This document shows positions 11,512 to 56,551 of a DNA stretch of 64,000 nt, piece by piece. Position numbers and translations under genes: made by a program. The notes below the pieces were generated by a model. That model ran no database searches. It was not told where the DNA came from and saw only the letters and a list, made by a program, of their open reading frames with translations. This stretch comes from Pseudomonas poae (GTDB lineage: Bacteria > Pseudomonadota > Gammaproteobacteria > Pseudomonadales > Pseudomonadaceae), in contig CP110972.1 of NCBI GenBank assembly GCA_028869255.1, forward strand, positions 3,539,001 through 3,603,000. The letters run 5' to 3'. The first letter of the stretch is position 1, and each line of letters starts with the position of its first letter.

Positions 11512-11602
11512 CGCCTCGCGTCGATGTCGACTATCGAGATTGGTGATTTTTCCTACACAGCCCGGCGCCGTAATGTGACCTCCATAGCGATTGGAGGTAC
11601 TT

Positions 11603-11785: not shown

Positions 11786-11788
11786 GGT

Positions 11789-12856
11789 TTACGGTAATGG
11801 CAGCTTGACCCGCGGTTTGCTTTCGACGAACAGCGCCCAGCTGGACATAAATAGCGCCGCCACCAGCGGCCCGATCACAAACCCGTTCAGGCCAAACACC
11901 GACAGGCCGCCCAGGGTCGAGATCAGAATCAGGTAGTCCGGCATCTTGGTGTCCTTGCCCACCAGGATCGGGCGCAGCACGTTGTCCACCAACCCGATCA
12001 CAAACACCCCGAACAAGGCCAGCACCACGCCCTGCCAGATCGAACCGCTCAACAGGAAATAGGCGGCCACCGGCCCCCACACAATGCCCGCGCCCACCGC
12101 CGGCAACAGTGACAGAAACGCCATCAGTACCGCCCAGAGCAACGCACTGGGAATGTCGAGGAACCAGAAGATCAAACCGCCCAGCGCACCCTGGGTCACG
12201 GCCACCAGCACGTTGCCCTTGACCGTGGCACGCACCACCCGGTTGAACTTGAGCTGCAAGCGACGCTTCTGCGGCTCGGCCAACGGCACCGCTGTGCGCA
12301 CTTTACGTACCAGCTCCGGGCCATCTCGCAGCAGGAAAAACAGCAGGTACAGCATGATGAAAAAGCTCACCAGGAAATCAAACGTGCCCTGGCCGAAGCT
12401 GAATGCCTGGGTCGCAAAGAACTGACTGCCCTGCATCGCGCTCTTGACGATATTTTCCCGCAGCCCTTCCAGGTTGCCCATGCCGAAGCGGTCCAACAGA
12501 TGCTGGAAGTACGGCGGCAGGAAGTTTTTGAACTGCTCGATATACCCCGCCACATCCAGTTTGCCGCTTTCGATATTTTTGTAGAGCGTCGCACCCTCTT
12601 GCACCAGCAAGACGCTGGTAATGATCACCGGCAGAATTGCGATCACCAGGCACACCATCAAGGTGGTCAGCGAGGTTAAGTTACGGTTCCAGCCGAACCG
12701 CTGCTGCAGGCGGCGCTGCATCGGGGCAAAGATGATGCCGAGGATCACTGCCCAGAACACCGCCCCGTAGAACGGCAGCAATATCCAGATAAACGCGATG
12801 GTCACCAGGGCCAGCAGCAACAGCAGGGTTTTGAATTGCAGGTTGGTTTGATTCAT
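11789..12856 (-). CDS. AI-2E/PerM-family permease
   Basis: 355 aa, the usual family length, with about eight membrane helices in the PerM pattern: three at the N-terminus, a cytoplasmic/periplasmic helical stretch (about 80-140), then a C-terminal block with LPAVGAGIVWGPVAAYFLLSG and LVDNVLRPILVGKDTKMPDYLI, the conserved signature. Members include YdiK, and proteins linked to AI-2 release or Na+/H+ exchange; the substrate here cannot be assigned. Monocistronic by position. Confidence 0.9.
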   Translation of the reverse strand: MNQTNLQFKTLLLLLALVTIAFIWILLPFYGAVFWAVILGIIFAPMQRRLQQRFGWNRNLTSLTTLMVCLVIAILPVIITSVLLVQEGATLYKNIESGKLDVAGYIEQFKNFLPPYFQHLLDRFGMGNLEGLRENIVKSAMQGSQFFATQAFSFGQGTFDFLVSFFIMLYLLFFLLRDGPELVRKVRTAVPLAEPQKRRLQLKFNRVVRATVKGNVLVAVTQGALGGLIFWFLDIPSALLWAVLMAFLSLLPAVGAGIVWGPVAAYFLLSGSIWQGVVLALFGVFVIGLVDNVLRPILVGKDTKMPDYLILISTLGGLSVFGLNGFVIGPLVAALFMSSWALFVESKPRVKLPLP

Positions 12857-41682: not shown

Positions 41683-44088
41683 TCAGAACCCTACGCTGGC
41701 CTGTACAAAGAACGTACGTGGCTCGCCCAGGTACAACCCGGCATTGTTATCGCTCGAACGCGTGTAGTGCTGCTGGTCAAAGACGTTTTTCACGCCAACC
41801 CCCAGCTTGAGGTTGGACAATTGCTCGCCGAAGTCATACCCACTGCGCACGTTGACTGAGACATAACCCGGGATATCACCGAACTGGCCATCCGCCGTGC
41901 CCTGGGTGATGTAGGTGTTGGTGGTGCCCGGTGCGCGCTGGCCGGACTGGGCGTACACATCCAGGTTGTGGGTCCAGTGGTTGATGTCGTAACGCAGCCC
42001 CAGGGTCGCCACTTCACGGGAGTACAGCGGCAAGTCACGGCCCTTGAACGGCACGTCGCCCTCGGAGGTGGCCTTGGTGTAGGTGAACCCGGCATTGGCG
42101 GTCAGGCCGTCAAGACGTGGGTCCAGGTTGGACAGGTCGTAGTGGGCCGACGCTTCGATACCGGTGTGCTTGGTAGCACCAAGGTTGGTCCACCCCACAT
42201 CGTTACTGACGTATTGCAGCTCATCCGAGAAGTCGATGTAGAAGAACGTCAGCTCGCCGCCCCACACGCTGTCGTTGTAGCGCGTGCCCACCTCGTAGGT
42301 CTTGGCCTTTTCCGGGTTCAAACCGTTGGCGGTCTGGTCGCCGGTGCCGCCCTGACCCAGCTGGAAGTATTGCAGGCTGCCGAACGAGGTCTCGTAGTTG
42401 GCGAACAGTTTCCAGGCATCAGACAGGTGATACATCACGCTCAGCGCCGGCAGCGGCTCGTTGTTGTGGATCTCGCGGCGTTTTTCCAGAGTGCGCGGGC
42501 CGGTCAGCGGGATAACCGGGCGGTCGTGCCATTCAGTGCGGATGTCTTCAAAACGGATACCCGGGGTGATCGTCCACTTGCCGATATCGATCTTGTTATC
42601 GACATAGAAAGCGTTGGCTTCGGTACCTCCGGTGCGGTCCTGATAAACGTGGCCATCATTGCGGCCTACCGGCGTCGGTACGTTATTGACCAGGCTCAGA
42701 CTGGTGGCCTGCTCGTGCATGCCTTCTTTGAGGTAGCGATAACCCAGGCTGACTTCCTGGGTGCTGGGCCCCACGTCGAACACATGGGACACCCGCGGCT
42801 CGATGCCAAAGGTGTAATAGGTGCGCGGGTAGGAACCGAGGGTCCTGAGGTCGCGGTTGGCAATGTTGCTGCCACGGAAGCTGTCGGAATAGTAAGTCAG
42901 CACTTCGGCCTGGGTACGGTCATCGATCTGACGGATGTACTTGAAGGACACGTCCTTGCGGCGGCCGCTGAAGTTGTCCCAGTCGCGTACCGATTGGTAG
43001 GGGTTGGCGTCGAATTGCTTCTGGGTCAAGCCGCCGGGCATGTCGGCGCTGGCGTCGTAGTAGTGGAAATTCAGCGAGAAGTCGTCTTGATCGGTCGGCG
43101 CCCAGTGGGTTTTGAAGATCACATCGTCGATGTCGTTGGAGTTGTTGCTGTTGCGATAGCCGTTGCCGTTGACCCCGGAGTACAGCAGCGCCGCGCCGAT
43201 GCCGTTGTCGGCGGTGCCGCCGATAAACGCGTTATCGATGTGCTTCCAGCCGCCATGGGCGGAGGTTTGCAGGGTGCTGCCGACTTCGCCGGAGAATTTC
43301 TCGGGGATGGCGCGGGTCACGAAGTTGATCACGCCCCCGACGTTCTGTGGCCCATAACGCACGGAGCCGGCACCGCGTACCACATCGATGCTGTCCAGGT
43401 TGCCCGAGGAAATCGGCGCCATCGACAACTGCGGCTGACCATACGGCGCGAACGCCGCCGGTACGCCGTCGATCAGCACAGTGGAGCGTGGCGACAGCCG
43501 CGACGTCAGGCCGCGAACGCCGACATTGAGGGAAATATCACTGCCGCCGGTGCCGTTGGATTCCTGCACCTGCACACCGGGCACGCGGCGCAGCACGTCA
43601 CCGACGTTCATCGCGCCCTGCTCCACCATGGCTTCGCGGCGGATCACCGTACGTGCGCCGGGGTGGTTCTGTACCACTTCGGCGTTGGCATCGCCCAGCC
43701 AGTCACCGACCACCTTGATGTCGGTAGCACCCAGTTCCAGGGGCGAACCGGCTTCACCGGTGCCGCCGCTCAACGGGCGCAGGGTCACCGAGCCGGCGTC
43801 GATCTGGTAATCCAGGCCACTGCCTTGCAGCAGTTGGCGCAGGGCCTGTTCGGGGGACAGGTTGCCGTCGACCGCCGGAGCCTGCTTGCCCGCGACGATA
43901 TCGGGGCTGAAGAACACTTGCAGCGACGTCTGCTGGCCCAGTTGGCTCAATGCCGCGCCCAGGGGTTGAGCCTGGATATGAATACCGTCGGCAGCGTAGG
44001 CCAACGGCACCGCGGCACTGACCGCAAGCGCCAGGGCCAGCGGCGCCCAGCGGGAGATTTTATTGTTGTAGACGGCAAGTTTTTTCAC
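41683..44088 (-). CDS. fecA: TonB-dependent ferric citrate receptor FecA
   Basis: 801 aa, GTG start. Signal peptide to about residue 33, STN signalling domain (IHIQAQPLGAALSQLGQQTSLQVFFSP, about 34-110), then plug and 22-strand barrel. Long stretches match E. coli FecA as I recall it: VVGDWLGDA, AFAPYGQPQLSMAP, VRYGPQNVGGVINFVTRAIP, KIDIGKWTITPGIRF, and the terminal aromatic FFVQASVGF. The signalling domain fits regulation through the FecR-FecI pair just upstream. Transports ferric dicitrate across the outer membrane. Confidence 0.92.
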   Translation of the reverse strand: MKKLAVYNNKISRWAPLALALAVSAAVPLAYAADGIHIQAQPLGAALSQLGQQTSLQVFFSPDIVAGKQAPAVDGNLSPEQALRQLLQGSGLDYQIDAGSVTLRPLSGGTGEAGSPLELGATDIKVVGDWLGDANAEVVQNHPGARTVIRREAMVEQGAMNVGDVLRRVPGVQVQESNGTGGSDISLNVGVRGLTSRLSPRSTVLIDGVPAAFAPYGQPQLSMAPISSGNLDSIDVVRGAGSVRYGPQNVGGVINFVTRAIPEKFSGEVGSTLQTSAHGGWKHIDNAFIGGTADNGIGAALLYSGVNGNGYRNSNNSNDIDDVIFKTHWAPTDQDDFSLNFHYYDASADMPGGLTQKQFDANPYQSVRDWDNFSGRRKDVSFKYIRQIDDRTQAEVLTYYSDSFRGSNIANRDLRTLGSYPRTYYTFGIEPRVSHVFDVGPSTQEVSLGYRYLKEGMHEQATSLSLVNNVPTPVGRNDGHVYQDRTGGTEANAFYVDNKIDIGKWTITPGIRFEDIRTEWHDRPVIPLTGPRTLEKRREIHNNEPLPALSVMYHLSDAWKLFANYETSFGSLQYFQLGQGGTGDQTANGLNPEKAKTYEVGTRYNDSVWGGELTFFYIDFSDELQYVSNDVGWTNLGATKHTGIEASAHYDLSNLDPRLDGLTANAGFTYTKATSEGDVPFKGRDLPLYSREVATLGLRYDINHWTHNLDVYAQSGQRAPGTTNTYITQGTADGQFGDIPGYVSVNVRSGYDFGEQLSNLKLGVGVKNVFDQQHYTRSSDNNAGLYLGEPRTFFVQASVGF

Positions 44089-44184
44089 GTCGAACCTAGT
44101 CCTGTGATCGCAAGAGTATGCGGCTGTTAATGCAAACCAGTTGCAGTTGCAGGAGAAGACGATGAGCGCGAAAAAACCTGAATG

Positions 44185-45171
44185 TCAGCGGGAAATTATT
44201 TCCTGGCTGCCGTCCGGCAAGGTGCGCAACGCCACCGGCAGGATGTGTGGCAGGGCCTTGAGCAAGGCGTCGGTGTCGTTGGCCTTGAATACACTGGTCA
44301 GGCGCAGGTTGCCGACCGCCGGGGTACTGACCCGCAACGGTTGCTCGCGATAACGCGAGACTTCCCGGGCCACCTCACCCAGCGAGGCGTTATTGAAGAC
44401 CAGCTTGCCGGTGCGCCAGGCTGTCAGTTCCTCGGCGTTCACGGCGTAGGCCGCTGCCACCAGGCCCTGGCTGTCGACGTGAGTGCCGCGGCCCGCCGTC
44501 AGGGTCACCAACTCATCCGGCGAACGGCCTTGCACCTTCACGGTGCCGGCCTCAACCACCACACGGGTCTGGTCGTCATCGCGGCGTACATCAAAGCGTG
44601 TGCCGGTGACCGTCACCTGCCCTGCCCCGGCCGCCACCACAAACGGCCGGCGGGTGTCGTGCTCGACGCTGAACATCGCCTCACCCTGCTTCAGCTCCAC
44701 GCCGCGTCGGTCTTTTTCATAGCGCACCGCGACACGGCTGCGGCTGTTGAGGTCCATCACCGAACCATCGGGCAGCGCCACCTGGCGATGTTCGCCCAGG
44801 CGGGTGCTGAACTCGGCCGTATACGGTTTGGGCTGGCCGAGACCACTGAACAGTCCCAGCCCCAGGGCGACGGCGACCACACTGGCCGCCACCGCGTAAC
44901 GCAACACTGCACGGCGTTGGGGGCGCTCGGCCGGTGCTTCGCAGAGTGCCTGCAGGCGGGCCTTGGGCACCAGGTCGGTGGCGGTCCACATGCCTTGCAA
45001 CACATCGAATTCATATTGGTGTTCAGGCTGCTCCGTGCGCCATGCGTCGAACTGCTCGCGCTCGGCGCTGCTCACGTCGGCGTCCTGCAGGCGTACAAAC
45101 CAGTGCGCGGCTTCGTCGCGAGTGCGGCTATCCATCATGGAAGGTCCTGTTTCAAAGCGGGCATGGTTCAT
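44185..45171 (-). CDS. fecR: FecR-family anti-sigma/sigma-regulator protein
   Basis: 328 aa. N-terminal cytoplasmic anti-sigma domain with RDEAAHWFVRLQDADVSSAEREQFDAWRTEQPEH, one membrane helix (AVLRYAVAASVVAVALGLGLFSG, about 88-110) and periplasmic FecR domain (FSTRLGEHRQVALPDGSVMDLNSRSRV). Start overlaps fecI by ATGA; MMDSRT at 45138 is an alternative start. Relays the FecA substrate signal to FecI. Confidence 0.92.
   Translation of the reverse strand: MNHARFETGPSMMDSRTRDEAAHWFVRLQDADVSSAEREQFDAWRTEQPEHQYEFDVLQGMWTATDLVPKARLQALCEAPAERPQRRAVLRYAVAASVVAVALGLGLFSGLGQPKPYTAEFSTRLGEHRQVALPDGSVMDLNSRSRVAVRYEKDRRGVELKQGEAMFSVEHDTRRPFVVAAGAGQVTVTGTRFDVRRDDDQTRVVVEAGTVKVQGRSPDELVTLTAGRGTHVDSQGLVAAAYAVNAEELTAWRTGKLVFNNASLGEVAREVSRYREQPLRVSTPAVGNLRLTSVFKANDTDALLKALPHILPVALRTLPDGSQEIISR
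44191..44203 (-). promoter_or_regulatory. Candidate FecI-type promoter -35 element for fecA
   Basis: On the minus strand reads GGAAATAATTTCC inside the 3' end of fecR, about 100 bases upstream of the fecA GTG. It resembles the start of the E. coli fecA promoter (GGAAAATAATTC..., recalled from memory). It is also a 13-bp palindrome, so another binding role is possible. Confidence 0.4.
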
Positions 45172-45668
45172 GGGGCCATCGCGTCCAGGCGGTCGCGTAG
45201 ATGCCGCAGGGTGCGGATCATATACTTTTCCACCATGTTTTTAGACAAGCCCAGGCGCTCGGCGATTTCCTGCTGGGTCAGGCCCTCGATTTTCTGCCAG
45301 ATGAAAATCTTGCGGCAGTTGAGCGGCAATTCGGCCAGGGCCCGTTCGATGGAGTCCGCCAACTGGATCGCGTGCATGAAATGCTCCGGGTCACCACTGT
45401 CGGGCGAGCGCTGATCACAGGTTTCCAGCGCCATGGCTTCACGACGGTCTTCGCGTCGATAGGCGTCCACGGCTATATTGCGTGCGGTTTGATGCAGATA
45501 GGCACGCGGCTGCGCAATATCGATGGATTTTGCCTCAAGCACCCGCACAAAGGTGTCGTGGGCCAGATCTTCAGCCTGCTGACGGTTTCTCAGGCGACGC
45601 GTCCAGGTTCCGATCAACTCTTCGTAATGCTGCAAAAAGCCTGTTCTGCGGGGCGGCTGAGGAATCAT
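45168..45668 (-). CDS. fecI: ECF sigma factor FecI (iron-starvation type)
   Basis: 166 aa. Region 2 with RNRQQAEDLAHDTFVRVLEA and QPRAYLHQTARNIAVDAYRRE; region 4 with LPLNCRKIFIWQKIEGLTQQEIAERLGLSKNMVEKYMIRTL. Matches FecI/PvdS-type sigma factors. Drives fecA transcription when FecR is activated. A possible Fur box lies just upstream. Confidence 0.92.
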   Translation of the reverse strand: MIPQPPRRTGFLQHYEELIGTWTRRLRNRQQAEDLAHDTFVRVLEAKSIDIAQPRAYLHQTARNIAVDAYRREDRREAMALETCDQRSPDSGDPEHFMHAIQLADSIERALAELPLNCRKIFIWQKIEGLTQQEIAERLGLSKNMVEKYMIRTLRHLRDRLDAMAP

Positions 45669-45696
45669 CGCGGAAGCACTGGGAAGGCGGGGCGTG

Positions 45697-45715
45697 AATA
45701 GTAATGCTTCCTATT
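45697..45715. promoter_or_regulatory. Possible Fur box upstream of fecI
   Basis: AATAGTAATGCTTCCTATT, an imperfect AT-rich inverted repeat 29 bases before the fecI start. It matches a Fur box at only about 10 of 19 positions, so the call rests mainly on its position and on the known Fur control of such sigma genes. Confidence 0.35.
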
Positions 45716-45759
45716 AAGCGGAGCAATTACTACCCGTCGTCGCTGCCGTTGCGCTGCAA

Positions 45760-46404
45760 TTATGGCTGGGCGGCCACTTGCTTGAGGCGGCTCAGTTTCT
45801 CGCGGCTGCCGCATACGCTCATCTGGCACCATTTGCGCTGCTTGTTCTTGGAGATATCGAGAAACACCCAATCGCAGTCGGTAGCGCTGCAGCTCCTCAA
45901 CGCTTGGAGATCACCGGACACCAGCAATTGCGTGGCCTCAATCGCCAGACGCCCGATCAGCAAGGTGGTCAATTCCTGCGCCGAGGTGCAGGGTAGCCAG
46001 TCCCAGGCAGGCCTGCCGTTGACCGAGCGCAGTATCCGCCAGGCCACACCTTGCTGGAACGCGTGATTGATCTGCTGCAAGGCGTCATCCGGCGCGGCCT
46101 GGTTCAATGACATCGGATAGAACGCCGCGTACAGGCACTCCCTGAACGCGATAATCGCGTCCAGGTTCGGCTGATAGGGAATAGGCGATTCAAACACCAT
46201 GGGCTTGTAGGCATCAAACTCCCGGGAGGAGATTAACGACGCATGTAACGCCCATTCAAAGAAGAATTGAAAACTGGTGAGGCGCTCTTCCTTGAACTTG
46301 AGTGCAGTGCCGGGGCGCCGGCCATTGGTGGTATTGATAAAGTCCAATACCCGGGCCCCACCAATCAGACGGATCGATTTTACAGTGCCCGTAAAGTGCG
46401 TCAT
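45760..46404 (-). CDS. CGNR zinc-finger/ABATE-domain regulator
   Basis: 214 aa. N-terminal ABATE domain (RVLDFINTTNGR..., EWALHASLIS) and C-terminal zinc finger with CSATDCDWVFLDISKNKQRKWC then CGSREK, where the family usually has CGNR. Such proteins are presumed stress-responsive transcriptional regulators. It lies about 100 bases downstream of the sulfated-metabolite operon on the same strand and may regulate it or be independent. Confidence 0.85.
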   Translation of the reverse strand: MTHFTGTVKSIRLIGGARVLDFINTTNGRRPGTALKFKEERLTSFQFFFEWALHASLISSREFDAYKPMVFESPIPYQPNLDAIIAFRECLYAAFYPMSLNQAAPDDALQQINHAFQQGVAWRILRSVNGRPAWDWLPCTSAQELTTLLIGRLAIEATQLLVSGDLQALRSCSATDCDWVFLDISKNKQRKWCQMSVCGSREKLSRLKQVAAQP

Positions 46405-46500
46405 GCCTGCTCCTTAGTAAACGCGGTCTTGCGGCGATGGCGCAGAGTACCTTGTTTTACAGAGTTGCAGACAATGGCAAACCGACGCAAAGACCAACGG

Positions 46501-47115
46501 CTACGCGTGATCCTCGTTACGTGCAAGCCAATCCAGGATGGCCTCGACAGACTGGTCCACCGACAGCGCCTGGGTATTCAAGTGCACCTCCGGAAACACC
46601 GGCAGGTCATAGTTGGAGTCGATACCGGTGAAGTTTTTGATCAGCCCCGCACGGGCTTTTTTATACAAGCCTTTGGGGTCGCGTTGTTCGGCCGTTGCCA
46701 GCGGCGCATCCACGTGCACTTCAACAAAAAACTCATTGCCGATGATCGAGCGTGCGTAATGGCGGCTGGCCGCCGAAGGCGAGATCAGCGCCACGATCAC
46801 GATCAACCCCGCCTCCAGCATCAAGCGGGCAACTTCCGCGACCCGCCGAATATTCTCATCCCGGTCACCGTCGGTAAAACCCAGGTCCCGACACAGCCCG
46901 CCGCGCACCGAATCACCATCAATAATGCTGGTGAAGCGCCCTTGGGCCTGCAGGGCGACGTCCAATGCATCCGCGATGGTCGACTTGCCGGACGCGGAGA
47001 TACCGGTCATCCAGATAACCACGGGCTTTTGCTTCATACGCAGGTGTTCGGCGCGTAGGGGGCTGAACGCAAATGCATGCAAATTCTGGTTTTGACGTTG
47101 CGCAAAGTAACTCAT
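46501..47115 (-). CDS. cysC: Adenylylsulfate (APS) kinase
   Basis: 204 aa. P-loop GISASGKSTIADAL near residue 38, DGDSVRGGLCRDLGFTDGDRDENIRRVAEVARLML and the FVEVHVDAPLATAEQRDPKGLYKKAR segment are CysC hallmarks. It phosphorylates APS to PAPS, the sulfate donor for sulfotransferases. A stand-alone cysC at the end of an operon that includes a sulfotransferase (50998-51726) points to dedicated PAPS supply rather than assimilatory sulfate reduction. Start overlaps the MFS stop by ATGA. Confidence 0.93.
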   Translation of the reverse strand: MSYFAQRQNQNLHAFAFSPLRAEHLRMKQKPVVIWMTGISASGKSTIADALDVALQAQGRFTSIIDGDSVRGGLCRDLGFTDGDRDENIRRVAEVARLMLEAGLIVIVALISPSAASRHYARSIIGNEFFVEVHVDAPLATAEQRDPKGLYKKARAGLIKNFTGIDSNYDLPVFPEVHLNTQALSVDQSVEAILDWLARNEDHA

Positions 47116-48340
47116 GGCTGTTGCTCCTGCGTCACTGAAACCGGTTGTTTACCCAACATGAAGACCATCACGCATTGCACGAACAGCAACAGCGCAACCA
47201 CCCAATAGACCGTCGAGAACGAACCGGTCAGGTCCTTGGAATACCCCCCAGGAAGTTGCCGCAGACGCCCCCAAGGCCAATCAAAACATTGGCAATGCCA
47301 AATGCCTGGGTCAGGCGGTTGACCGGCACGATTTGCCCGATGTAACTGGGGACGAGCCCGAAGATCGGATAAAACGCCAGCGCGAACAAAAACGCCGCCA
47401 GGTAGAACAGCGCAATGCTGTTGAAACTGAACACCAGGGCCGCGGCCAGTCCCGCGCTCAAAAAGCACATCGCCAACGACGCCCTGACACCCACCTTGTC
47501 GGCAATCCACCCCACCAAGAAGCCCGAGGCCATGCCTACGGCGCCAATGGTGGTCCAGATAAACCCGGTGTCTTGCACCGACACGCCCAGTTCATCCCGA
47601 AGGAACGGCGCCAGGTACGTCTGGAACGGCAGCAGCGCCATCCCATTGAGAAAGGCGATGGCCCAGGTCAGATAAAGCGAGCGGCTCAGCCAGGGTTTGT
47701 CGCTGCCGACGGCGGTCGAGCGCGCCCCGGAAAACCCGACATCCTGGCCCGCCGCCATGTTGCGCAACAGAAACCAAGCGACCACGCACAACGCCACCGA
47801 TATCAGGCCGGCGGTCAGCCAGATCGAGCGCCAACCGCCATGCAGGGTCAGAAACGACACCAACAAGCCATTGATGAACACGCCATAACTGGTGCCGCTG
47901 GAAATCAGCCCCATGACCCGCGAGCGGTTACCCGGGCTGAATCCCTTGGTGACGATTTCCGCCAACGGGATATACACCGACGCGGAACAGCCGCCGAGCA
48001 GAATCAACAGCGCTCCGGATAACCAGATGTTGTCGCTGACACTCAGCCCCAGCAACGCCAGGGACGTCATCACCGTGGACACCAGGCTGATTTTCCAGCC
48101 CTCGAAAAAACGGCTGATATAGCTGGTAACCGACGAAAACAGCAGGAAGCCGATCTGCGCGCCGCCGGTGATCACGCCCACCGTGGTGTAGTCGAAACCG
48201 ATGTCCCGGCGCATGTCCACCACCAGGTTGGCGAACAGATAAACGCCGAACCCATAGGTGCTGGCCACAAAGCCGGTCAACACCACCGCCAGCACCACAC
48301 TGTCGAGTGTGCGCGGGGTGCTCTGTACGAGTGTGCTCAT
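47112..48340 (-). pseudogene. MFS exporter of the sulfated-metabolite cluster, one-base frameshift
   Basis: The main frame (start 48340, MSTLVQSTPRTLDSVVLAVV) covers about 11 helices with the loop EIVTKGFSPGNRSRVMGL, then ends early at 47228 (GIPRT). The next frame supplies YSKDLTGSFSTVYWVVALLLFVQ and the tail to 47112, making 409 aa in all. The join is a run of six C (47244-47249; G on the coding strand); seven would restore the frame. Even truncated only the last helix would be lost. Presumed exporter of the product. Confidence 0.78.
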
Positions 48341-48350
48341 GGTCTGCCCC

Positions 48351-49121
48351 CTATATGGCGCGCGCAGTGTGAATGACAAAATCACACTCCATCATGTCGT
48401 AGTCACGCTCGAAATCACCGTAACTTTCATGGGCTGAAAACCCGGACGCAAGGACCTGCGTCGCCAATTCACCCGGCAATAACGGGTACACCTTCAGCCG
48501 ATACTGTTCGGCATTATCAAAGGTGTAGATGAACTCACACAGGTGCTGATCAACCTGCCCGAGGCTGACCGACGCGTTGGTGCCGCAGTAATAGTAATTA
48601 CCGCTGGCCTTGAACTTGCCGGCGCGAATCGCAAAAAAGTTGCGTTGATCCACAATCAGCAGCCCACCCGGTTTGAGCAACGCCCTGAACTTTTCCAGCA
48701 CCCTCAACCGGTCGTGCGCGGCAAATACATGGCACAGCGAACTGCCCAGGCACACCACGGCATCGAACCGCCCGAGCACGGTCGGGTCGAGCGCCAGCCA
48801 GTCCATGTAGTGCGACTCGATGTCCAGGCCGCGCTCGCGAAAGTTCGCCCGCGCCTTGGTCAGCATCGTGCTGCTGCCGTCGGTGGCGACCACCTCAAAC
48901 CCCGCTTGCTTGAGCTGTACCGCATGGAAGCCGCTGCCCGTCGACACATCGATCACCGAGCGCACGCCGTGTTCGCGCAGCAGCTTTTCGAAAAAGCCGC
49001 CCTCCCCGGCCTTTCTCTTTTCCCAATCAATCAACTCGTCCCAACGCTCGACAAAATCCGCCGAATATTGCGCTGAATAACTGGCAACTTCGTTGTGCTT
49101 TTGCTCCGACAACTGATTCAT
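48351..49121 (-). CDS. SAM-dependent methyltransferase, glycine N-methyltransferase-like
   Basis: 256 aa from the ATG at 49121. Class I Rossmann methyltransferase: motif I VIDVSTGSGFHAVQLKQAGFEVVATDGSSTML near residue 60 resembles glycine N-methyltransferases (DVACGTG... SVDAS), followed by FDAVVCLGSSLCHVF and LKPGGLLIVDQRNF. The N-terminal SAQYSADFVERWDELIDW is also GNMT-like. An N-methylation of an amine in the cluster product is plausible. The upstream part of the longer frame is a shadow of the next gene. Confidence 0.82.
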   Translation of the reverse strand: MNQLSEQKHNEVASYSAQYSADFVERWDELIDWEKRKAGEGGFFEKLLREHGVRSVIDVSTGSGFHAVQLKQAGFEVVATDGSSTMLTKARANFRERGLDIESHYMDWLALDPTVLGRFDAVVCLGSSLCHVFAAHDRLRVLEKFRALLKPGGLLIVDQRNFFAIRAGKFKASGNYYYCGTNASVSLGQVDQHLCEFIYTFDNAEQYRLKVYPLLPGELATQVLASGFSAHESYGDFERDYDMMECDFVIHTARAI

Positions 49122-49128
49122 CACACAC

Positions 49129-50265
49129 CTACCAGGTTGAATTTTTGAAAGACAAATACTTGCTCGCCAGCTCGCGGGCGAAATCGGCGGACTGCTCAAT
49201 CGACATGGTCTTCTTGGAATACCCCAACATCGTTTCCATGACCGCCATGCATTGCGGGTTGTAGGTGACGGATCCATCACAATGAATTTCGTCGATGCCG
49301 TCCTGGCTCTGGCAAATCGTATTGATGCGCACCGCCTCGTCCTGAGGACAGGCGTCGGAAAACAGCACTTCAATGCGCCCATCGTGCAGCCGCACCGGAT
49401 AACCGCCCGGCAGCCCAAGCGGGCCTGGTGCATGCACCAGCACGGGCGTGGGCGAAAACAACCCCTCGATGACGGTGACCGCCGAACAGGCTGTGAGGAA
49501 CTGCCCATCAACCCCGCCCAGGCGCCGGAATTCGGATTTAACCCCGGAGAAAATCGCCTCGGCAGGCAGGCGGTCGGCCTGCGGCCTGCCGTGCACCTCA
49601 TACAACAAGCGGTAGCTGGCACGTGGGGGTAGCCCGTCGCGGGGCACGTAGTGGCTGAAGTAATGCTGGGCATACAGCTGCACCTGCACCTCGCTGGGTG
49701 AGCACTCCAGCAGCCGGGCAATCGAAAGACGTGTGGCAGGGACCAGGTTGGCGACGTTGCCCACACCGATATCCGGTGCCAGGCCGACCCTGGCCAGAAT
49801 CGGGTTGACCGCATCGGGGAACGCCGCATTCACGGTTTTGACCGTGATCCCGGAGGCCTTTACCGCCTGCATCAAGCTATGCATCAGCGTCAGGTGCATG
49901 GGCAACCAGGGGCCGAACTGTGCCTTGTCGAGTTTCTCGAACGACAACTTGGGCAAGCCGGTGATCACCCGCCATGACTGCAACGACGCGCAGTTCACCA
50001 GGATGTCCGGCGCCTCCTCGCGGAGCACCCGCGTGACCCTGCCGATATCCGTCAAGTCGGCGACCACCGGCTTGATTGCAATGTATTGGCCCAACTGCGC
50101 ACACGACAGCGCCACCAGGTTACACAGCCGAATCGTGGCCTCCTCATTGCGGCCCAGCACCACGAATTCGAAGGCATTTTTCGGCCCGAGAATCTTCAGA
50201 ATCTGCAGGCACAGATTACCCGCGCCCACCAGCAGCAGCTTTTTCTTGCGCATCGACGGGCTCAT
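49129..50265 (-). CDS. Saccharopine dehydrogenase-like NAD(P)-binding oxidoreductase
   Basis: 378 aa. N-terminal Rossmann fold (KKLLLVGAGNLCLQILKIL, then VVLGRNEEATIRL, with PDILVNCAS near residue 90) followed by a large substrate domain. The overall plan fits the saccharopine-dehydrogenase/homospermidine-synthase superfamily, which forms or reduces imines and secondary amines; specific function unknown. Its start overlaps the SDR stop by ATGA. Confidence 0.68.
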   Translation of the reverse strand: MSPSMRKKKLLLVGAGNLCLQILKILGPKNAFEFVVLGRNEEATIRLCNLVALSCAQLGQYIAIKPVVADLTDIGRVTRVLREEAPDILVNCASLQSWRVITGLPKLSFEKLDKAQFGPWLPMHLTLMHSLMQAVKASGITVKTVNAAFPDAVNPILARVGLAPDIGVGNVANLVPATRLSIARLLECSPSEVQVQLYAQHYFSHYVPRDGLPPRASYRLLYEVHGRPQADRLPAEAIFSGVKSEFRRLGGVDGQFLTACSAVTVIEGLFSPTPVLVHAPGPLGLPGGYPVRLHDGRIEVLFSDACPQDEAVRINTICQSQDGIDEIHCDGSVTYNPQCMAVMETMLGYSKKTMSIEQSADFARELASKYLSFKNSTW

Positions 50266-50987
50266 CGTGGGTAGGCTCCGTTGTCGACCGGGATGACCTT
50301 GCCGGTCATGTGCCGCATGCCTTCGCCGATCAGCAGCAGAATCACCTCGGCAACCCCGCTGGGCAGGATGGGGTCCTTGAGGATTTCCTGGCGCGCATAC
50401 TCGGCGCGTCGGTACTCGGGGATGGTGTCGTAGATCGCGGTGTCATGGATCAGCGCCGGCGACACGGCGTTTACCCGCACAAACGGTGCGAAATTCCAGG
50501 CATTGGCTTTGGTCAGGCCGATCACCGCCGCCTTGGTGGCACCGTAGAGGGCATCACAGCTGCCCACCTCCCCCGCCACCGAGGCAATGTTGACGATGCT
50601 GCGCGGCGCTTCGTGCCGCATCTCGCGTTCGGCGAAGTCTTTGGAGAGATAGACCAGCGCCTTGAGGTTGACGTTGAGGATTTCGTCGATTTGCTCGTCG
50701 CTGTAGAGGTAAACGCTTTTACCGTGATAAATACCGGCGTTATTAACCAGCCCGTAAATAGTGGTGTGGCGTTCATACAGCATGGGGATAAAACCCTTGA
50801 TAACTGTATTGTCCGCGAAGTCGGCAACGTGCGTTTCCACTACGTCCACGCCATAACGATGTTGCAACGTAGCCAGGCCCTCGGCGTCCTTATCGGCGGC
50901 AATAACGAAATAGCCGTCCTCAATTGCCTTTTCCACGGTCGCCCGGCCAATGCCATTGGCGGCCCCGGTAACAATCAACTTCTTCAT
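50262..50987 (-). CDS. Short-chain dehydrogenase/reductase of the cluster
   Basis: 241 aa classical SDR. TGAANGIGRATVEKA cofactor loop at the N-terminus with acidic AADKDAEG (NAD preference), NNAGIYHGK near residue 88, catalytic Ser in NIASVAGE and YGATK (Tyr/Lys) near 150-155. An oxidation or reduction of a sugar- or alcohol-like intermediate is likely. Confidence 0.9.
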   Translation of the reverse strand: MKKLIVTGAANGIGRATVEKAIEDGYFVIAADKDAEGLATLQHRYGVDVVETHVADFADNTVIKGFIPMLYERHTTIYGLVNNAGIYHGKSVYLYSDEQIDEILNVNLKALVYLSKDFAEREMRHEAPRSIVNIASVAGEVGSCDALYGATKAAVIGLTKANAWNFAPFVRVNAVSPALIHDTAIYDTIPEYRRAEYARQEILKDPILPSGVAEVILLLIGEGMRHMTGKVIPVDNGAYPR

Positions 50988-50997
50988 ACAACAATCC

Positions 50998-51726
50998 CTA
51001 TTGGCAAAATTCGTTCATGCGCGCGTAAAACGTGCGATGGTATTCGTACAGCGCCCTTAACTTCGGATGCTCTTCGAGCGTCTGCATATCAATGTGCGGT
51101 GTAGCCGGCGAAACAATTCGCTCACTGTTTTCGGCCGCCACGTGCCAACTTCTCCAGGTTTTCCACTGGGGTGGGCATTCACGTTTCCAGGTCAGCGCGT
51201 GCGGTAGAAACTCGATACCCAAGTAATCACAGAGTTTACGAATAACGCGTTCGGGTTCGGCAGCAAGGTCATCCGCATTAATCACATACGGGACTGTTCC
51301 GGTGAGTTTGGTTACTACACAAAAAATCTCATATAACGCTTTATGCCCGATGGCCTGCATCGGCATATCGGGATGCACCCGATGATGGGAAATAATGCTG
51401 CTGGCGGGTTCGCGAATAAGAAAGATGTTGTGTTGTTGCGCCAAAAAACCCACATCAACTTTCAAGTCATCCAGGCAGTGGTAACACATGTCTTTATGAA
51501 ACACATTTGCACGTTCTTTGGCGGTGAGCAGGTGTTGTTTTATGCCCTGATACGTCGTGGGCAGACTGTGGTCCCATTCATCCGACGGGATCGCCGAATC
51601 CTCGGAAAACGCCATGTGAGCGAAGGGCTCGTGGAAGACCTCGAAATCCCCACGCTCGATGAACACACGTTCCAACACGGTGGAACGCGAGCGCGGGTGC
51701 GCCCATAACCCGACCATTTTGTTCAT
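50998..51726 (-). CDS. Sulfotransferase (PAPS-dependent)
   Basis: 242 aa from the ATG at 51726, overlapping the transaldolase-like stop by ATGA. The 5'-phosphosulfate loop is LWAHPRSRSTVLERVF near residue 6 (canonical PRSGST), and the 3'-phosphate-binding segment appears as FLIREPASSIISHHRVHP near 105. Likely transfers sulfate from PAPS to a hydroxyl or amine of a small molecule; the cluster's own APS kinase makes the donor. Confidence 0.82.
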   Translation of the reverse strand: MNKMVGLWAHPRSRSTVLERVFIERGDFEVFHEPFAHMAFSEDSAIPSDEWDHSLPTTYQGIKQHLLTAKERANVFHKDMCYHCLDDLKVDVGFLAQQHNIFLIREPASSIISHHRVHPDMPMQAIGHKALYEIFCVVTKLTGTVPYVINADDLAAEPERVIRKLCDYLGIEFLPHALTWKRECPPQWKTWRSWHVAAENSERIVSPATPHIDMQTLEEHPKLRALYEYHRTFYARMNEFCQ

Positions 51727-52947
51727 GCGATCACCCCGAACTCGGCGGCCAGCAGTGCGTTGAGCGAGCGTTTGAACGGCTTGGCCACGGGGCAGAGTCG
51801 AACGCAATAGTCCGTCAGGCGCCGGTGCGCGCTGTTGGCTTCATTGCAGGCGTTGATAAAGGCTTCGTGGTTGCCGAAGTCATATGGCTCGATGCCGTCA
51901 AGCAAATAGGCTTCGCAGAAGTACGGGATGCGGAGCAGCTTGGCGAAGGTCGAAGGCGGCGGCTCAAGTGCATCCACCGCCGGCAATACCGGCTTACCGT
52001 GGCTTTCGCGCTCGATCAGAAACTCCACCACGTCCGGCGTCAAGGTGTAGCAGGTGGTACTCAGGCCGGTCTTTTCCAGGTGCCAGCAGTGCTTGTTGCC
52101 GCGCTCGTCGACATCGATTTTGATGCTGGAAAGCAGGGTCTTGACCGGCACCTTGCAGGCCGTCACCAGCGCCTGTATCTGCTCGTAAATCAGCAATTCG
52201 GCCCAGCGCAGCTCTTCGGCGCTCAGCGCCAGGCCACGCTCCGCCGCCTGCAGCGCGAACTCGGGCTGGCAGGAGAAGCGCCCGATCATGAAAGTGATCA
52301 CGTGTTTGCAATGACGGGTGTCGATACCGTTGCTGCACGCGGTTGCCATGCCCCGCTGTATCGCCTGGATACCGGCCTGGAATTGCGAGACCGTAAAGCA
52401 GAAGGTGATATTTACCGAACCGCCCTGGGCCACCAGGGCTTCGACGGTGGCCAAACCCTCCAGGCTGCCCGGCACCTTGACCATTACATTCGGTGCAAGC
52501 AGCTGCAGTTCCAGGCCCCTGGCGGTCATGCGTTCGGTGCAACGCACATCCACAGGCTCAACCTGGGCACACATCCAGCCTTCGGCCTGGGCCGATTGAA
52601 CCCACAGCGGTGCAAGCGCTGCAGCGCCTTCGGTGATCACTTCGTTGTACAGCTTCTTGCGCAGCTCGGCGGGAGACAGGCTCGCCAGGTTAAAGCGCGA
52701 CGCCCAATACTCGCGTTTTTCGAGGATAACGGCCGTCACCAGCCGAGGGTTGGTGGTCACGCTGCTAAAACCGTTGGCAGGCAAGAACACATCCGGCATC
52801 AACTGTTCTATATAAGCGGCCGCTGCGGGGGTACTTATCAAGCAGGTGCTTTTTATACGGCGCGTATACCGCGGTTGATGAATCCCACCAGACTTCTGAA
52901 CCGGGGTTATTCCGCTTAAGCCGTTCTCTATAACCGAGTGTGTTCAC
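51723..52947 (-). pseudogene. Transaldolase-like enzyme of the cluster, one-base frameshift
   Basis: With one frame correction the product is 407 aa from a GTG at 52947, well placed after GGAGGAGG. The start reads NPGSEVWWDSSTAVYAPYKKHLL and then shifts at a run of five G (52827-52831); four would give HLLDKYPAAAAYIEQLMPDVFL. SVTTNPRLV and VMVKVPGSLEGLATVEALVAQGGSVNITFCFT carry the transaldolase signature with the Schiff-base Lys. Such enzymes move a dihydroxyacetone unit between sugars and can build unusual C7-C8 sugars in biosynthesis. Confidence 0.8.
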
Positions 52948-53683
52948 AGCGCCTCCTCCTTGAGTAAGTTCGCTCGTTAATAAGGGTCAACAAATCACGC
53001 ATATCAGAAAACGGTAGTGCTCCGGCGTCAGCCAACATCGAGTGCCGATCCGGCGGACCGAAACCCAACACGTTGATAGTGGCGGCCACGGCGGCCTGTA
53101 TACCGGTAACGCTGTCTTCGATAACCAGGGCATCAGCGACATCAATACCGTAAGTGTCACAGGCGGTTAAAAACACCAGAGGGTCCGGTTTCCAACGGCC
53201 CAGCTCATAACAACTGAATATTCGCCCTTCAAAGTAAGAAAACAGCCCCGCGAGACGCAGGCAATGTTCGATCTTGTTGCGCGGCGCACTCGACGCTACG
53301 CAATAGGGAATCTCCAACGCCTGCAGAACTTCAACAATGCCATCGGTGGCCTTCAAGTGACGCGTCAAGGCATTCAGCGCGTGGTGTCGAAACTGCGATT
53401 CAAACTCGCTGTTCAATTCAATATTTAATACGTGCTGCGCTTCATATAAGCACTCCGCAATCTTGCGCCCACGAAAACGCTCGATATAAGTCGCACACTC
53501 TAATTGTGTACCGCCCACTGCTTGGGCATTAAGCAAGGTGATCAACACAGACAGGGTGATCTCTTCACTTTGCACGAGTACACCGTCGCAATCGAAGATA
53601 ACCAACTTGGGCACGCCACTATTGACCGCCACTTTTTCCTGGTCCGGTAGTTCTCCTATAACGGCCGAAAGGCACATAGACAT
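52928..53683 (-). CDS. HAD-superfamily phosphatase, first gene of the sulfated-metabolite operon
   Basis: 251 aa. HAD motifs: I LVIFDCDGVLVQSE (nucleophile Asp and following Asp), II CVASSAPRNKI, III ELGRWKPDPLVF, IV VIEDSVTGIQAA. Closest in pattern to beta-phosphoglucomutase/YieH-type sugar phosphatases (HAD-IA). Likely dephosphorylates a sugar phosphate from the transaldolase step. Overlaps the next gene by about 20 bases. Start at 53683 or 53677. Confidence 0.85.
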   Translation of the reverse strand: MSMCLSAVIGELPDQEKVAVNSGVPKLVIFDCDGVLVQSEEITLSVLITLLNAQAVGGTQLECATYIERFRGRKIAECLYEAQHVLNIELNSEFESQFRHHALNALTRHLKATDGIVEVLQALEIPYCVASSAPRNKIEHCLRLAGLFSYFEGRIFSCYELGRWKPDPLVFLTACDTYGIDVADALVIEDSVTGIQAAVAATINVLGFGPPDRHSMLADAGALPFSDMRDLLTLINERTYSRRRRCEHTRL

Positions 53684-53931
53684 CTCTTATAGGTGGCCCC
53701 GCGATGACTTCCGAACTACCAACGGAGCGGGTTGAGGTGTGCCTATAAGACACGCGGCGAAAAACCCTGTCAAACGCTTTTGAGCGGTTTTTTAGTATCT
53801 TATGGTTATTTCTTATTATTCTTTTATTCCATTTATCACCATGGTTGTAGTCGCTAAAATCACACGGGTGAACTTCCGTTGCGCGCCGTCAGTCAGCTGC
53901 TTGAAATCACGATTTTTAGGGCGGGTGAGCA
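53684..53931. other. Divergent promoter region, AT-rich
   Basis: 248 bases between the leftward cluster and the rightward SDR. AT-rich with T-runs (CTTATTATTCTTTTATTCC) and a weak hairpin CGCT-TTTG-AGCG followed by TTTTTT near 53776-53793. No gene seen; it must contain the cluster promoter. Confidence 0.5.
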
Positions 53932-54732
53932 ATGCGTATCTCGTTGGAGCAACAAGTGGCCCTGGTGACAGGCGCCAGTTCCGGAATCGGTGCTGGCGCG
54001 GCCAAGGCCCTGGCGCAAGCCGGGGCGGCCGTGGTGCTGAATTACAACAGCCAGGCGGCACCGGCCGAAGCCCTGGCAGAGCAGATCAACGCCGAGGGCG
54101 GCCGGGCAATTGCCGTCGGCGCCGACATATCAAAAGAAGCCGACGTGGAGCGGCTGTTCGCCCAAACCCTGGAGACCTTCGGCCACCTGGACATCCTGGT
54201 GGCCAACTCCGGTATGCAAAAGGACGCCGCAGTGGTCGACATGACCCTCGACGACTGGAACGCCGTGATCGGCGTCAACCTCACCGGCCAGTTCCTGTGC
54301 GCCCGGGCGGCGGTGCGGGTGTTCAAACGCCAGGGCATCCGTGAAGGCGTGTCACGGGCCGCCGGCAAAATCATCCATATGAGTTCGGTGCACCAATTGA
54401 TCCCCTGGGCCGGGCATGTGAATTACGCGGCGTCCAAGGGTGGCGTGGAAATGCTGATGCGCACTCTCGCCCAGGAAGTCAGCGAGCAGCGGATCCGCAT
54501 CAACGGCATTGCGCCAGGAGCGATTCGGACTGCGATCAATCGCGCGGCCACCGAAGGCGCAGCCGAAAAGGAGCTGCTGAAGTTGATCCCCTATGGCCGC
54601 GTCGGCGATGTGGAAGACGTGGCCAACGCGGTGGTGTGGCTGGCCAGTGATGCGTCCGACTATGTCGTGGGCAGCACCTTGTTTATTGATGGCGGCATGA
54701 GCCTGTATCCGGAGTTTCGCGACAATGGTTGA
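53932..54732 (+). CDS. SDR oxidoreductase, glucose 1-dehydrogenase-like
   Basis: 266 aa classical SDR: VALVTGASSGIGAGAAKAL, ANSGMQKDA near residue 95, catalytic Ser in HMSSVHQ and YAASKG near 164-169, terminal GSTLFIDGGMSLYPEF. Members near GH15 genes are usually annotated glucose 1-dehydrogenase. Its stop lies 8 bases inside the next gene, so the two are coupled. Confidence 0.87.
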   Translation: MRISLEQQVALVTGASSGIGAGAAKALAQAGAAVVLNYNSQAAPAEALAEQINAEGGRAIAVGADISKEADVERLFAQTLETFGHLDILVANSGMQKDAAVVDMTLDDWNAVIGVNLTGQFLCARAAVRVFKRQGIREGVSRAAGKIIHMSSVHQLIPWAGHVNYAASKGGVEMLMRTLAQEVSEQRIRINGIAPGAIRTAINRAATEGAAEKELLKLIPYGRVGDVEDVANAVVWLASDASDYVVGSTLFIDGGMSLYPEFRDNG

Positions 54733-56551
54733 TTTGAAAAACGAACCACAAAGCGCCATCGATGCGCACGGCATCATCGGCGATATGCGCAGTGCGGCCC
54801 TGGTGAACGACAAAGGCAGCATCGATTTTTTCTGCTGGCCGGAATTCGACAGCCCCGCGATCTTTTGCTCGCTGCTGGATACGCCCGAGGCCGGGGTTTT
54901 CCAGCTCACCCCGGACCTGCCCAACGCCCGCCGCGAGCAAATTTACCTGCCCGACACCAACGTACTGCAAACCCGCTGGCTCAGTGATGAAGCCGTGGTC
55001 GAGATCACCGACCTGCTGGTCATCAGCGAAGAACCCGATGACCTGCCCCTGCTGATTCGCCGGGTCCGCGTGGTCAGCGGCACAGCCAGCATTCACCTGC
55101 GCTGCGCCGTACGCCATGACTATGCACGCGCGCCTACCGTTGCGGCGCTGGATAACGGCACGGTGTGCTTTCGCGCCGACGGCCAGCCTGGCCTGCGCCT
55201 GTCCGGCAGCCACCCGCTGCAGGTCAAGGACGGGGCCGCTGTAGCGAGCTTTGTGCTGGACCAGGAAGAAGGTGCCGAGTTCGTACTCGGTGGCCAGGAC
55301 GATGAACGGGTGGACAGCAGCTGCACCGACCTGGCGCTGGCCCACACCTTGAAATTCTGGCGCGGCTGGATCGCACAGTCGAACTATCGCGGGCGCTGGC
55401 GTGAAATGGTTAACCGCTCGGCCTTGGCGCTCAAGCTGCTGACCTCGCGCAAACACGGCGCCATTATTGCCGCCGCCACCTTTGGCTTGCCGGAAACTCC
55501 GGGCGGCGAACGCAACTGGGACTACCGCTACACCTGGATCCGCGACGCCTCGTTTACCGTCTACGCCTTTATGCGCCTGGGCTTTGTCGAGGAGGCCAAT
55601 GCGTACATGCGCTGGCTCAAGGGCCGGGTCAGCGACTGCTGCGGCCAGCCGACCAAGATCAATATCCTGTATGGCATCGACGGGCGTCAGGAACTGCCCG
55701 AAACCACGCTGGACCACTTCAGCGGCCACGGCGGCGCCAAGCCGGTGCGCATCGGCAATGAGGCGGTCGACCAGATCCAGCTGGATATTTATGGCGAGCT
55801 GATGGACGCGGTGTACCTGGTCAACAAGTACGGCGAAGCCATTTCCCATGAGGGCTGGAAACACACGGTGGAAGTCGCCGATCAGGTCTGCGAGATCTGG
55901 AACCAGAAGGACGTGGGCATCTGGGAAATGCGCGGTGAGCAGCATCACTTCCTGCATTCGCGGCTGATGTGCTGGGTGGCCCTGGACCGTGCCATCCGCC
56001 TGGCATACAAGCGCTCACTGCCGGCGCCGTTTGCGCGCTGGGACCAAACGCGCCAGGCGATTTACGCCGACATCTGGAGCAACTTCTGGAACGAAGAACG
56101 TGGGCATTTTGTGCAGCATATCGGCAGCACGGCCCTTGACGGCTCGATGCTGTTGATGCCGCTGGTACGCTTTGTCGCGGCCACCGATCCGCGCTGGCTT
56201 TCGACCCTGGAAGCCATCCAGAAAAGCCTGGTGCGCGATGGCATGGTCTACCGCTACCGCAACGACGACAGCCAGATCGACGGCCTGCAAGGCACCGAGG
56301 GCGCATTTGCCGCCTGCTCGTTCTGGTACGTCGAATGCCTGGCCCGCGCCGGCCAAGTCGAAAAGGCCCACCTGGAATTCGAACAACTGCTGCGCTACGC
56401 CAACCCACTGGGCCTGTACGCCGAAGAGTTCGACAGCCAGGCCCACCACTTGGGCAACACGCCCCAAGCCTTGAGCCACTTGGCGCTGATTAGCGCGGCG
56501 ACCTTCCTGGACCGCAAGCTCAGTGGGGAGAAAACCACCTGGCAGCCGTGA
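54725..56551 (+). CDS. Glycoside hydrolase family 15 (glucoamylase-type)
   Basis: 608 aa. N-terminal beta domain (IDAHGIIGDMRSAALVNDKGSIDFFCWPEFDSPA) and (alpha/alpha)6 catalytic barrel with GERNWDYRYTWIRDASFTVYAFMRLGF near residue 260, and YRNDDSQIDGLQGTEGAF near 510 holding a probable catalytic Glu. Family members hydrolyse alpha-glucosides such as trehalose or maltodextrins. No signal peptide, so cytoplasmic. Confidence 0.9.
   Translation: MVDLKNEPQSAIDAHGIIGDMRSAALVNDKGSIDFFCWPEFDSPAIFCSLLDTPEAGVFQLTPDLPNARREQIYLPDTNVLQTRWLSDEAVVEITDLLVISEEPDDLPLLIRRVRVVSGTASIHLRCAVRHDYARAPTVAALDNGTVCFRADGQPGLRLSGSHPLQVKDGAAVASFVLDQEEGAEFVLGGQDDERVDSSCTDLALAHTLKFWRGWIAQSNYRGRWREMVNRSALALKLLTSRKHGAIIAAATFGLPETPGGERNWDYRYTWIRDASFTVYAFMRLGFVEEANAYMRWLKGRVSDCCGQPTKINILYGIDGRQELPETTLDHFSGHGGAKPVRIGNEAVDQIQLDIYGELMDAVYLVNKYGEAISHEGWKHTVEVADQVCEIWNQKDVGIWEMRGEQHHFLHSRLMCWVALDRAIRLAYKRSLPAPFARWDQTRQAIYADIWSNFWNEERGHFVQHIGSTALDGSMLLMPLVRFVAATDPRWLSTLEAIQKSLVRDGMVYRYRNDDSQIDGLQGTEGAFAACSFWYVECLARAGQVEKAHLEFEQLLRYANPLGLYAEEFDSQAHHLGNTPQALSHLALISAATFLDRKLSGEKTTWQP

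Follow-up and report, generated by a model that had tools for sequence, protein, structure and literature searches.

The window analysed here is a 64,000-nucleotide stretch of the Pseudomonas poae contig CP110972.1 (assembly GCA_028869255.1; the host genome comprises 6.8 Mb in one contig). It carries a block of nine genes that is probably a laterally moving cassette for making a small polyhydroxy metabolite that is methylated and bears sulfate. What could be observed directly is which genes are present, their linkage, the insertion of the block, and the families and active-site residues of the enzymes; from these we infer the substrates, the order of the steps, the direction of transport and the product.

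Gene content and boundaries of the block

All nine genes lie on the minus strand. Families were assigned with Pfam and NCBIfam profiles on the window proteins. The first gene of the block (52928 to 53683) encodes a phosphatase of the haloacid dehalogenase family (HAD; PF00702, 80.6 bits; PF13419, 74.2 bits), and the second (51723 to 52947) an aldolase of the transaldolase/fructose-6-phosphate aldolase (FSA) family (TAL; PF00923, 69 bits against a cut-off of 27), whose frame is interrupted and whose open part spans 51723 to 52841. These are followed by a sulfotransferase (ST; 50998 to 51726; PF19798, Sulfotransfer_5, 57.9 bits against a cut-off of 23.2) dependent on 3′-phosphoadenosine 5′-phosphosulfate (PAPS), a short-chain dehydrogenase/reductase (SDR; 50262 to 50987; PF13561, 130.9 bits), a dehydrogenase of predicted lactate/malate dehydrogenase (LDH/MDH) fold and presumed cofactor type that is elsewhere annotated as saccharopine dehydrogenase (SDH; 49129 to 50265), and an S-adenosylmethionine (SAM) methyltransferase related to glycine-sarcosine N-methyltransferase (GSMT) (MT; 48351 to 49121; E values of 1.8e-58 and 5e-58 to the GSMT structures 5h02 and 5gwx). 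A major facilitator superfamily (MFS) transporter, probably an exporter, occupies 47112 to 48340 (PF07690, 121.3 bits), again with an interrupted frame (open part 47228 to 48340), and an adenosine 5′-phosphosulfate (APS) kinase that makes PAPS lies at 46501 to 47115 (APSK; PF01583, 204 bits; TIGR00455 apsK, 223.5 bits, above its cut-off). The ninth gene (45760 to 46404) encodes a CGNR zinc-finger/ABATE regulator, with both PF11706 and PF07336 above cut-off.

A sequence-only reading of this DNA had described eight tightly packed, mostly overlapping genes between 46501 and 53683, and that observation is confirmed in part. All eight genes, from HAD to APSK, are real and stand in the order claimed, with a Rossmann-type dehydrogenase in fifth place; the count omitted the CGNR gene, which also lies inside the insertion boundaries. 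When start and stop codons were read by eye, four of the seven junctions proved to overlap (HAD/TAL by 20 bases; TAL/ST, SDR/SDH and MFS/APSK by 4 each), while the other three are gaps of 7 to 10 bases.

Two genomes of the same genus (L148 and L149) lack the block and align with both of its flanks in the window; the alignment breaks, at 53867 to 53869 and 45739 to 45742, set its extent at 45740 to 53868. In these genomes a flank with a glycoside hydrolase family 15 (GH15) gene and an SDR gene and a flank with FecI, FecR and TonB genes lie 168 and 672 bases apart, which indicates insertion or loss of about 8.1 kb. Since all nine genes fall between the alignment breaks, the CGNR gene is part of the block and the neighbouring genes are not. 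Among nine GH15 regions searched for empty sites, these two had GH15-SDR beside FecI-FecR-TonB; six had GH15-SDR alone, with neither the cassette nor FecI-FecR-TonB in the stretch examined, and the ninth (L152, 2.9 kb) was too short to judge. No repeats of at least 12 bases were found within each junction region.

Adjoining the block at 41683 to 45668 are a TonB-dependent receptor and FecR/FecI-like regulators, named by eye from their sequences. They were rejected as members of the system because they are found at the empty site in both block-free relatives, and the GH15 and SDR genes (53932 to 54732), which flank the same empty sites, were rejected likewise.

Conservation across bacteria

We collected 70 SDH loci by an alignment scan of one genome per species, which may leave out the window's own genome, and scored gene presence at each locus by tblastn of every window protein, counting matches no more than 6.5 kb from SDH. 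The order TAL-ST-SDR-SDH-MT is kept in 51 of the 70 loci, and its sharing by unrelated genera is more than chance would give. The homologues are thus linked rather than scattered, which agrees with the expectation from the sequence-only reading that they form one cluster. All eight genes from HAD to APSK are kept in 32 loci, of which 23 are from Pseudomonas and nine from Burkholderia, Paraburkholderia, four Streptomyces, Saccharopolyspora and two Salinarimonas. Thirteen further Pseudomonas loci have TAL-ST-SDR-SDH-MT-APSK with both HAD and MFS unrecognised, and ten of the 70 have SDH alone or SDH-HAD only. A CGNR match sits beside the cluster, on the opposite strand, at four loci (L040, L041, L049 and L058). 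Pairwise protein distances for six genes correlate at r = 0.88 to 0.98 over 47 to 51 loci, values inflated by the many similar loci of the fluorescens group. A separate search for SDH homologues gave 1163 proteins, of which the best 120 were listed, so the spread outside Pseudomonas is taken from the one-genome-per-species scan.

Within the genus, the distribution of the cassette is patchy and sometimes decaying: ST matches occur in 47 of 398 genomes, 39 of them of the cluster type at 57% identity or more, and 2 of these 39 are in pieces (G379 and G147). We found no description of the gene set in the open-access literature, in keeping with the earlier statement that no described cluster with this set was recognised.

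Enzymes of the predicted scaffold

The Schiff-base Lys and the TNP motif of TAL are invariant in 22 of 22 cluster sequences and occupy the same columns as in four housekeeping transaldolases. The acid/base position, that of Glu96 in Escherichia coli TalB, is Gln in all 22 cluster TALs and Glu in all four housekeeping transaldolases aligned. In the sequences compared, this Gln sets TAL apart from those four enzymes. Gln in place of Glu presumably helps to tell FSA from transaldolase; PDB titles name TalB E96Q and FSA Q59E variants, and no paper with E96Q was found in the open-access literature. For HAD, the nearest NCBIfam family is 6-phosphogluconate phosphatase (128.8 bits, below the cut-off of 211), and the catalytic D/D/K/D residues are kept in 44, 43, 44 and 44 of 45 matches. 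The genome has two other PF00923 genes, and its APS-kinase matches comprise four strong ones, the cluster copy included, and one weak one, so that the cluster copies of TAL and APSK are not the only ones in the genome.

The dehydrogenase had been called saccharopine-dehydrogenase-like, a label that we revise. The window protein matches no Pfam or NCBIfam family at an E value of 0.001 or below, and its predicted structure has the LDH/MDH fold over most of the chain. When this model was used in a structure search, all 50 of the matches listed were LDH/MDH enzymes; that no saccharopine-type fold is among these 50 does not exclude such a fold. At the sequence level, saccharopine and carboxyspermidine dehydrogenases match weakly within residues 5 to 115, and 16 of 38 family members match the Sacchrp_dh_NADP profile at an E value of 0.1 or below (best, 5.4e-5). 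LDH/MDH membership is not detectable at the sequence level: hhalign against three malate dehydrogenases gave a probability of 0.6%, and Ldh_1 was not among the families matched by the 38 members at an E value of 0.1 or below. By eye, the invariant His201 lies where the LDH His would be expected. With no profile match and an LDH/MDH fold in the model, we set aside a saccharopine dehydrogenase or opine-forming role. The accompanying SDR keeps its catalytic Ser, Tyr and Lys in 58, 57 and 55 of 58 matches.

SDH homologues also occur in other settings. A 21-kb Actinoplanes locus, in which TAL was not found, carries a class II fructose-bisphosphate (FBP) aldolase, a pyridoxal phosphate (PLP) enzyme, SDH, a dioxygenase, a thioesterase and a nonribosomal peptide synthetase (NRPS) adenylation domain. 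Loci L071 to L074 carry SDH-HAD, and the one annotated, Streptomyces L072, adds NRPS genes and an ATP-grasp gene. SDH is therefore found repeatedly in biosynthetic contexts, accompanied in Actinoplanes by a different carbon-joining enzyme. In Mycobacterium, a methionyl-tRNA-synthetase-like gene lies near an SDH homologue. A plasmid search with SDH returned 19 records, all below 60% identity, and cassette genes were not listed in the five regions viewed. On three rhizobial plasmids (L107, L108 and L111) a distant homologue sits beside genes annotated as alanine racemase and as a TIGR01459 HAD hydrolase, a context that suggests a different pathway for the SDH family. On a Planktothrix agardhii plasmid (L109) a distant homologue (30.6%) has an alkene reductase gene as its neighbour, and genes for an aminotransferase, AsnB and NadB lie close by.

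Sulfation and methylation

ST keeps the Arg-x-x-Ser-Thr of what we take to be the 5′-PAPS loop in 52 of 53 matches (one not covered), and a later Arg, presumably also functional, in 53 of 53. Several relatives carry additional supply genes. CysD- and CysN-like genes (PF01507 and GTP_EFTU) lie beside the APS kinase in Streptomyces lincolnensis L4, CysN and APS-kinase domains are found at a Salinarimonas locus, a CysQ-like phosphatase (below its NCBIfam cut-off) at a Burkholderia locus, and a SAM synthetase at a Puniceibacterium locus. These extra genes for PAPS and SAM supply, each in single relatives, support both sulfation and methylation and are the strongest evidence for PAPS-dependent sulfation.

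Among solved structures, MT is closest to GSMT of Methanohalophilus portucalensis, and it scores 246.6 bits with the GSMT equivalog NF051855, below the cut-off of 350. In GSMT, the carboxylate of the substrate is bound by Arg167 and Tyr206, and its amine is contacted by Asn134 (PMC5146677). The Arg167 and Tyr206 positions are kept in 55 of 55 cluster MTs, while Asn134 is replaced by Ser and Met218 by Val in all 55. The retained Arg/Tyr pair and the change from Asn to Ser suggest that the substrate probably bears a carboxylate and is not glycine, with the methyl group placed on N or O. The N-methylation proposed earlier is no more than plausible, since the amine-contacting Asn is Ser throughout. 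The betaine-pathway affinity of MT, together with an MFS protein that could work in either direction, might instead fit an osmolyte or nutrient pathway with an importer and no secreted metabolite; we consider this very unlikely, because specialised metabolism agrees better with the patchy occurrence in the genus (39 of 398 genomes) and with the insertion of the genes as one block.

The sequence-only reading further supposed that the core is oxidised and aminated, which is not supported. By family, no aminating enzyme is encoded among the nine genes (the neighbours are annotated in part only), and the supposed saccharopine dehydrogenase models with an LDH/MDH fold. A route through an amino-group carrier protein was rejected, since no LysW-like C-terminus (E-D/E-WGE) was found in the 47 loci L030 to L076.

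Two structures for the product follow different parts of this evidence. One is a nitrogen-free, O-methylated, sulfated higher-carbon sugar acid, for which MT would have switched from an amine to a hydroxyl. The conserved cassette genes include no aminating enzyme, all 55 MTs have Ser for Asn134 and retain the carboxylate contacts, and LDH/MDH enzymes act on 2-oxo and 2-hydroxy acids. As GSMT-type enzymes are N-methyltransferases, and an amino-aldehyde from primary metabolism could supply nitrogen without a cluster gene, we regard this structure as possible and on balance doubtful. The other, which we hold equally tentatively, is a polyhydroxylated, possibly cyclic N-methyl amino acid, formed from a dihydroxyacetone unit and an amino-acid semialdehyde by way of an imine or ketone that is then reduced. 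The retained GSMT-type Arg/Tyr pair is consistent with it, as is the proximity of the SDH family to amino-acid-activating genes (the NRPS and ATP-grasp genes of Streptomyces L072, the adenylation domain beside the FBP aldolase in Actinoplanes, and the methionyl-tRNA-synthetase-like gene in Mycobacterium). The acceptor aldehyde is hypothetical, however, and imine reduction by an enzyme of LDH/MDH fold would be unusual.

Relationship to encapsulin clusters and described pathways

A Family 3 encapsulin gene lies between SDH and a sulfotransferase gene in S. lincolnensis L4 and S. buecherae, where HAD-TAL-SDH, PAPS genes, MFS, encapsulin and sulfotransferase are held together. The sulfotransferase that follows the encapsulin gene in S. 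lincolnensis L4 is of another family (PF13469). Pairs of sulfotransferase and SDR are common in Family 3 ("natural product") encapsulin clusters, and the word "transaldolase" does not occur in the available text of the source (PMC8346489). The Pseudomonas block, in contrast, contains no encapsulin gene among its nine, and the best match elsewhere in the genome scores 20.3 bits against a cut-off of 180. In loci L064 (about 11281 to 12096) and L067 (11276 to 12205), an encapsulin shell protein is encoded within a TAL-SDH-sulfotransferase cluster.

Among 297 genomes of the Streptomyces family, five have a Family 3 encapsulin above cut-off, and a sulfotransferase adjoins it in all five. TAL and SDH stand beside it in one of the five within the stretches examined, three of which (L169, L170 and L172) are cut short by the end of a contig; a general link between encapsulin and the cassette is therefore not shown. 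In two genomes of this family (L171 and L172), the encapsulin gene lies beside a homologue of the Pseudomonas ST (29% and 33% identity), and TAL and SDH were not found in the stretches examined.

Sulfation might also be transient, with the sulfate ester lost as a leaving group when a ring is closed or in an elimination or substitution, and the exported product sulfate-free. Azinomycin offers a precedent: in sulfated 2,6-diamino-5,7-dihydroxyheptanoic acid (DADH) an amine of the molecule itself attacks to form an aziridine, and the sulfate departs (PMC9570651). Chloromethyl-pipecolic peptides are made by the chloromyxamide cluster, the one Family 3 encapsulin cluster that had been studied at the time of PMC8346489, which gives the role of its encapsulin as then unknown; the adjoining sulfotransferase at all five encapsulin loci points the same way. 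Since the nine genes include neither a cyclase nor a halogenase, we think transient sulfation unlikely in the Pseudomonas pathway and prefer a sulfate-bearing product.

Azinomycin resembles the block in a further respect, as a ketose-transferring enzyme extends the carbon chain of an aldehyde before sulfation when its azabicycle is made. It differs in using a transketolase and an aminotransferase, neither of which is in the Pseudomonas block, and in that its sulfate is displaced (both from the available part of PMC9570651). The lincomycin and celesticetin clusters, likened here by gene content, also bring together a transaldolase (LmbR), a phosphatase (LmbK), a dehydrogenase and a methyltransferase (the N-methyltransferase LmbJ), as given in the available part of PMC12945683, and the part of the lmb/ccb table seen there lists no sulfotransferase. 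Adenylation, nucleotidyltransferase and glycosyltransferase genes are missing from the Pseudomonas block. LmbR was not located by name among the three PF00923 matches of S. lincolnensis L4. In saxitoxin and cylindrospermopsin biosynthesis, a dedicated APS kinase sits with a sulfotransferase, and the scaffold genes are of polyketide synthase (PKS)/NRPS or other types. The Pseudomonas block has no PKS/NRPS or such scaffold genes, and we claim no likeness at that level. With GSMT of betaine synthesis, MT shares its sequence family and carboxylate-binding residues; it differs in its score below the equivalog cut-off and in the substrate-contacting Asn and Met, both replaced in 55 of 55 sequences.

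State of the P. poae copy and its upstream region

Two genes of the P. poae copy have broken frames. The first part of TAL, from a GTG at 52947, is out of frame with the rest, with a single-base interruption near 52828, and the last part of MFS is out of frame with 47228 to 48340, with a single-base interruption near 47242. The TAL start motif is in frame with the rest in 25 of 25 fluorescens-group loci (L007 to L029, L063 and L069), and MFS is in one frame in each of the 24 loci where its motifs could be located (L029, whose sequence stops short of MFS, is the exception). Relatives with an intact copy include P. simiae and P. extremorientalis. Apart from the two interruptions in P. poae, alignment with L007 shows no gap inside the listed genes from 41683 to 56551; for positions below 41683, gaps were not attributed to genes.

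This strain's copy may thus be inactive, or the frame breaks may be assembly errors. That the block is a decaying remnant here is plausible, if somewhat less probable than its opposite. The intact frames of near relatives and the broken copies elsewhere in the genus, such as the ST genes in pieces in G379 and G147, speak for decay. Both shifts, however, are of a single base and coincide with or adjoin short homopolymer runs, which are sites of assembly errors too, the remaining listed genes from 41683 to 56551 are free of gaps relative to L007, and two cases are too few to decide.

Ahead of HAD, a promoter-like TTGACA, 17 bases and TCTTAT was read by eye on the minus strand (53745 to 53773) and was not reported by a promoter scan. 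The region from 53684 to 53773 also contains the half-sites CTTATAGGCA and ACCTATAAG at a distance of 54 bases. Each half-site is conserved in 20 of the 26 copies from the fluorescens group and was found in none of the other upstream regions searched. The pair is a possible candidate operator for the CGNR regulator.

Proposed pathway and implications

In the pathway that we propose, TAL, a Lys-dependent aldolase, would join a dihydroxyacetone unit to an aldehyde, and HAD would remove phosphate. The LDH/MDH-fold dehydrogenase and SDR would then adjust keto and hydroxy groups, and MT, with its retained carboxylate-binding pocket, would methylate a carboxylate-bearing intermediate on N or O. APSK would supply PAPS with which ST sulfates a hydroxyl, MFS would export the product, and CGNR would regulate the genes.

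Several observations weigh against this proposal. It is drawn from gene content and sequence, with product and enzyme activities predicted and expression presumed. The window copies of TAL and MFS both have a broken frame, and the pathway is possibly inactive in this strain. Elsewhere in Pseudomonas, some clusters are partial: L026 is without APSK and most of HAD, L037 without TAL and ST, and L045 without ST, and such losses imply a dispensable pathway. In 18 Pseudomonas loci where SDR-SDH-MT or more is retained, no HAD gene was found, so either the phosphatase step is not universal or another gene performs it. Six cluster TALs compared have Met at the position where, as we understand it, FSA has Tyr and TalB has Phe, which leaves the FSA-like reading incomplete. 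The position of GSMT Tyr26 varies among the 55 MTs (Tyr in 42, Phe in 7, Gly in 1, Val in 1, and 4 not covered), and the gene-distance correlations are partly a group effect.

The earlier interpretation as a sulfated, methylated and exported small molecule is supported in part. A conserved, self-contained cluster and the supply genes of its relatives leave the idea of sulfation and methylation well supported; a sulfated end product is predicted rather than observed, and export is probable.

We suggest, tentatively and with less than even confidence, that the cassette represents the encapsulin-free sister of a hitherto unrecognised class of pathways common to Actinomycetota and Pseudomonadota, which a Family 3 encapsulin has joined in some Streptomyces. 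Here an FSA-like TAL and an LDH/MDH-fold dehydrogenase would make a polyhydroxy scaffold with a carboxylate group, with no need of PKS, NRPS or aminotransferase; methylation and sulfation would follow, and the product would belong to a new structural class of natural product. The protein family that some databases name for the NADP-binding domain of saccharopine dehydrogenase would be relabelled as one of LDH/MDH fold. Seven enzymes, a regulator and a transporter, with an order kept across two phyla, lack the PKS, NRPS and terpene genes that cluster-mining programs usually need, and the cassette probably hides an overlooked small polar metabolite. It represents a simple, dissectable pathway linked to some Family 3 encapsulins, and the Pseudomonas version could be dissected in tractable laboratory strains.

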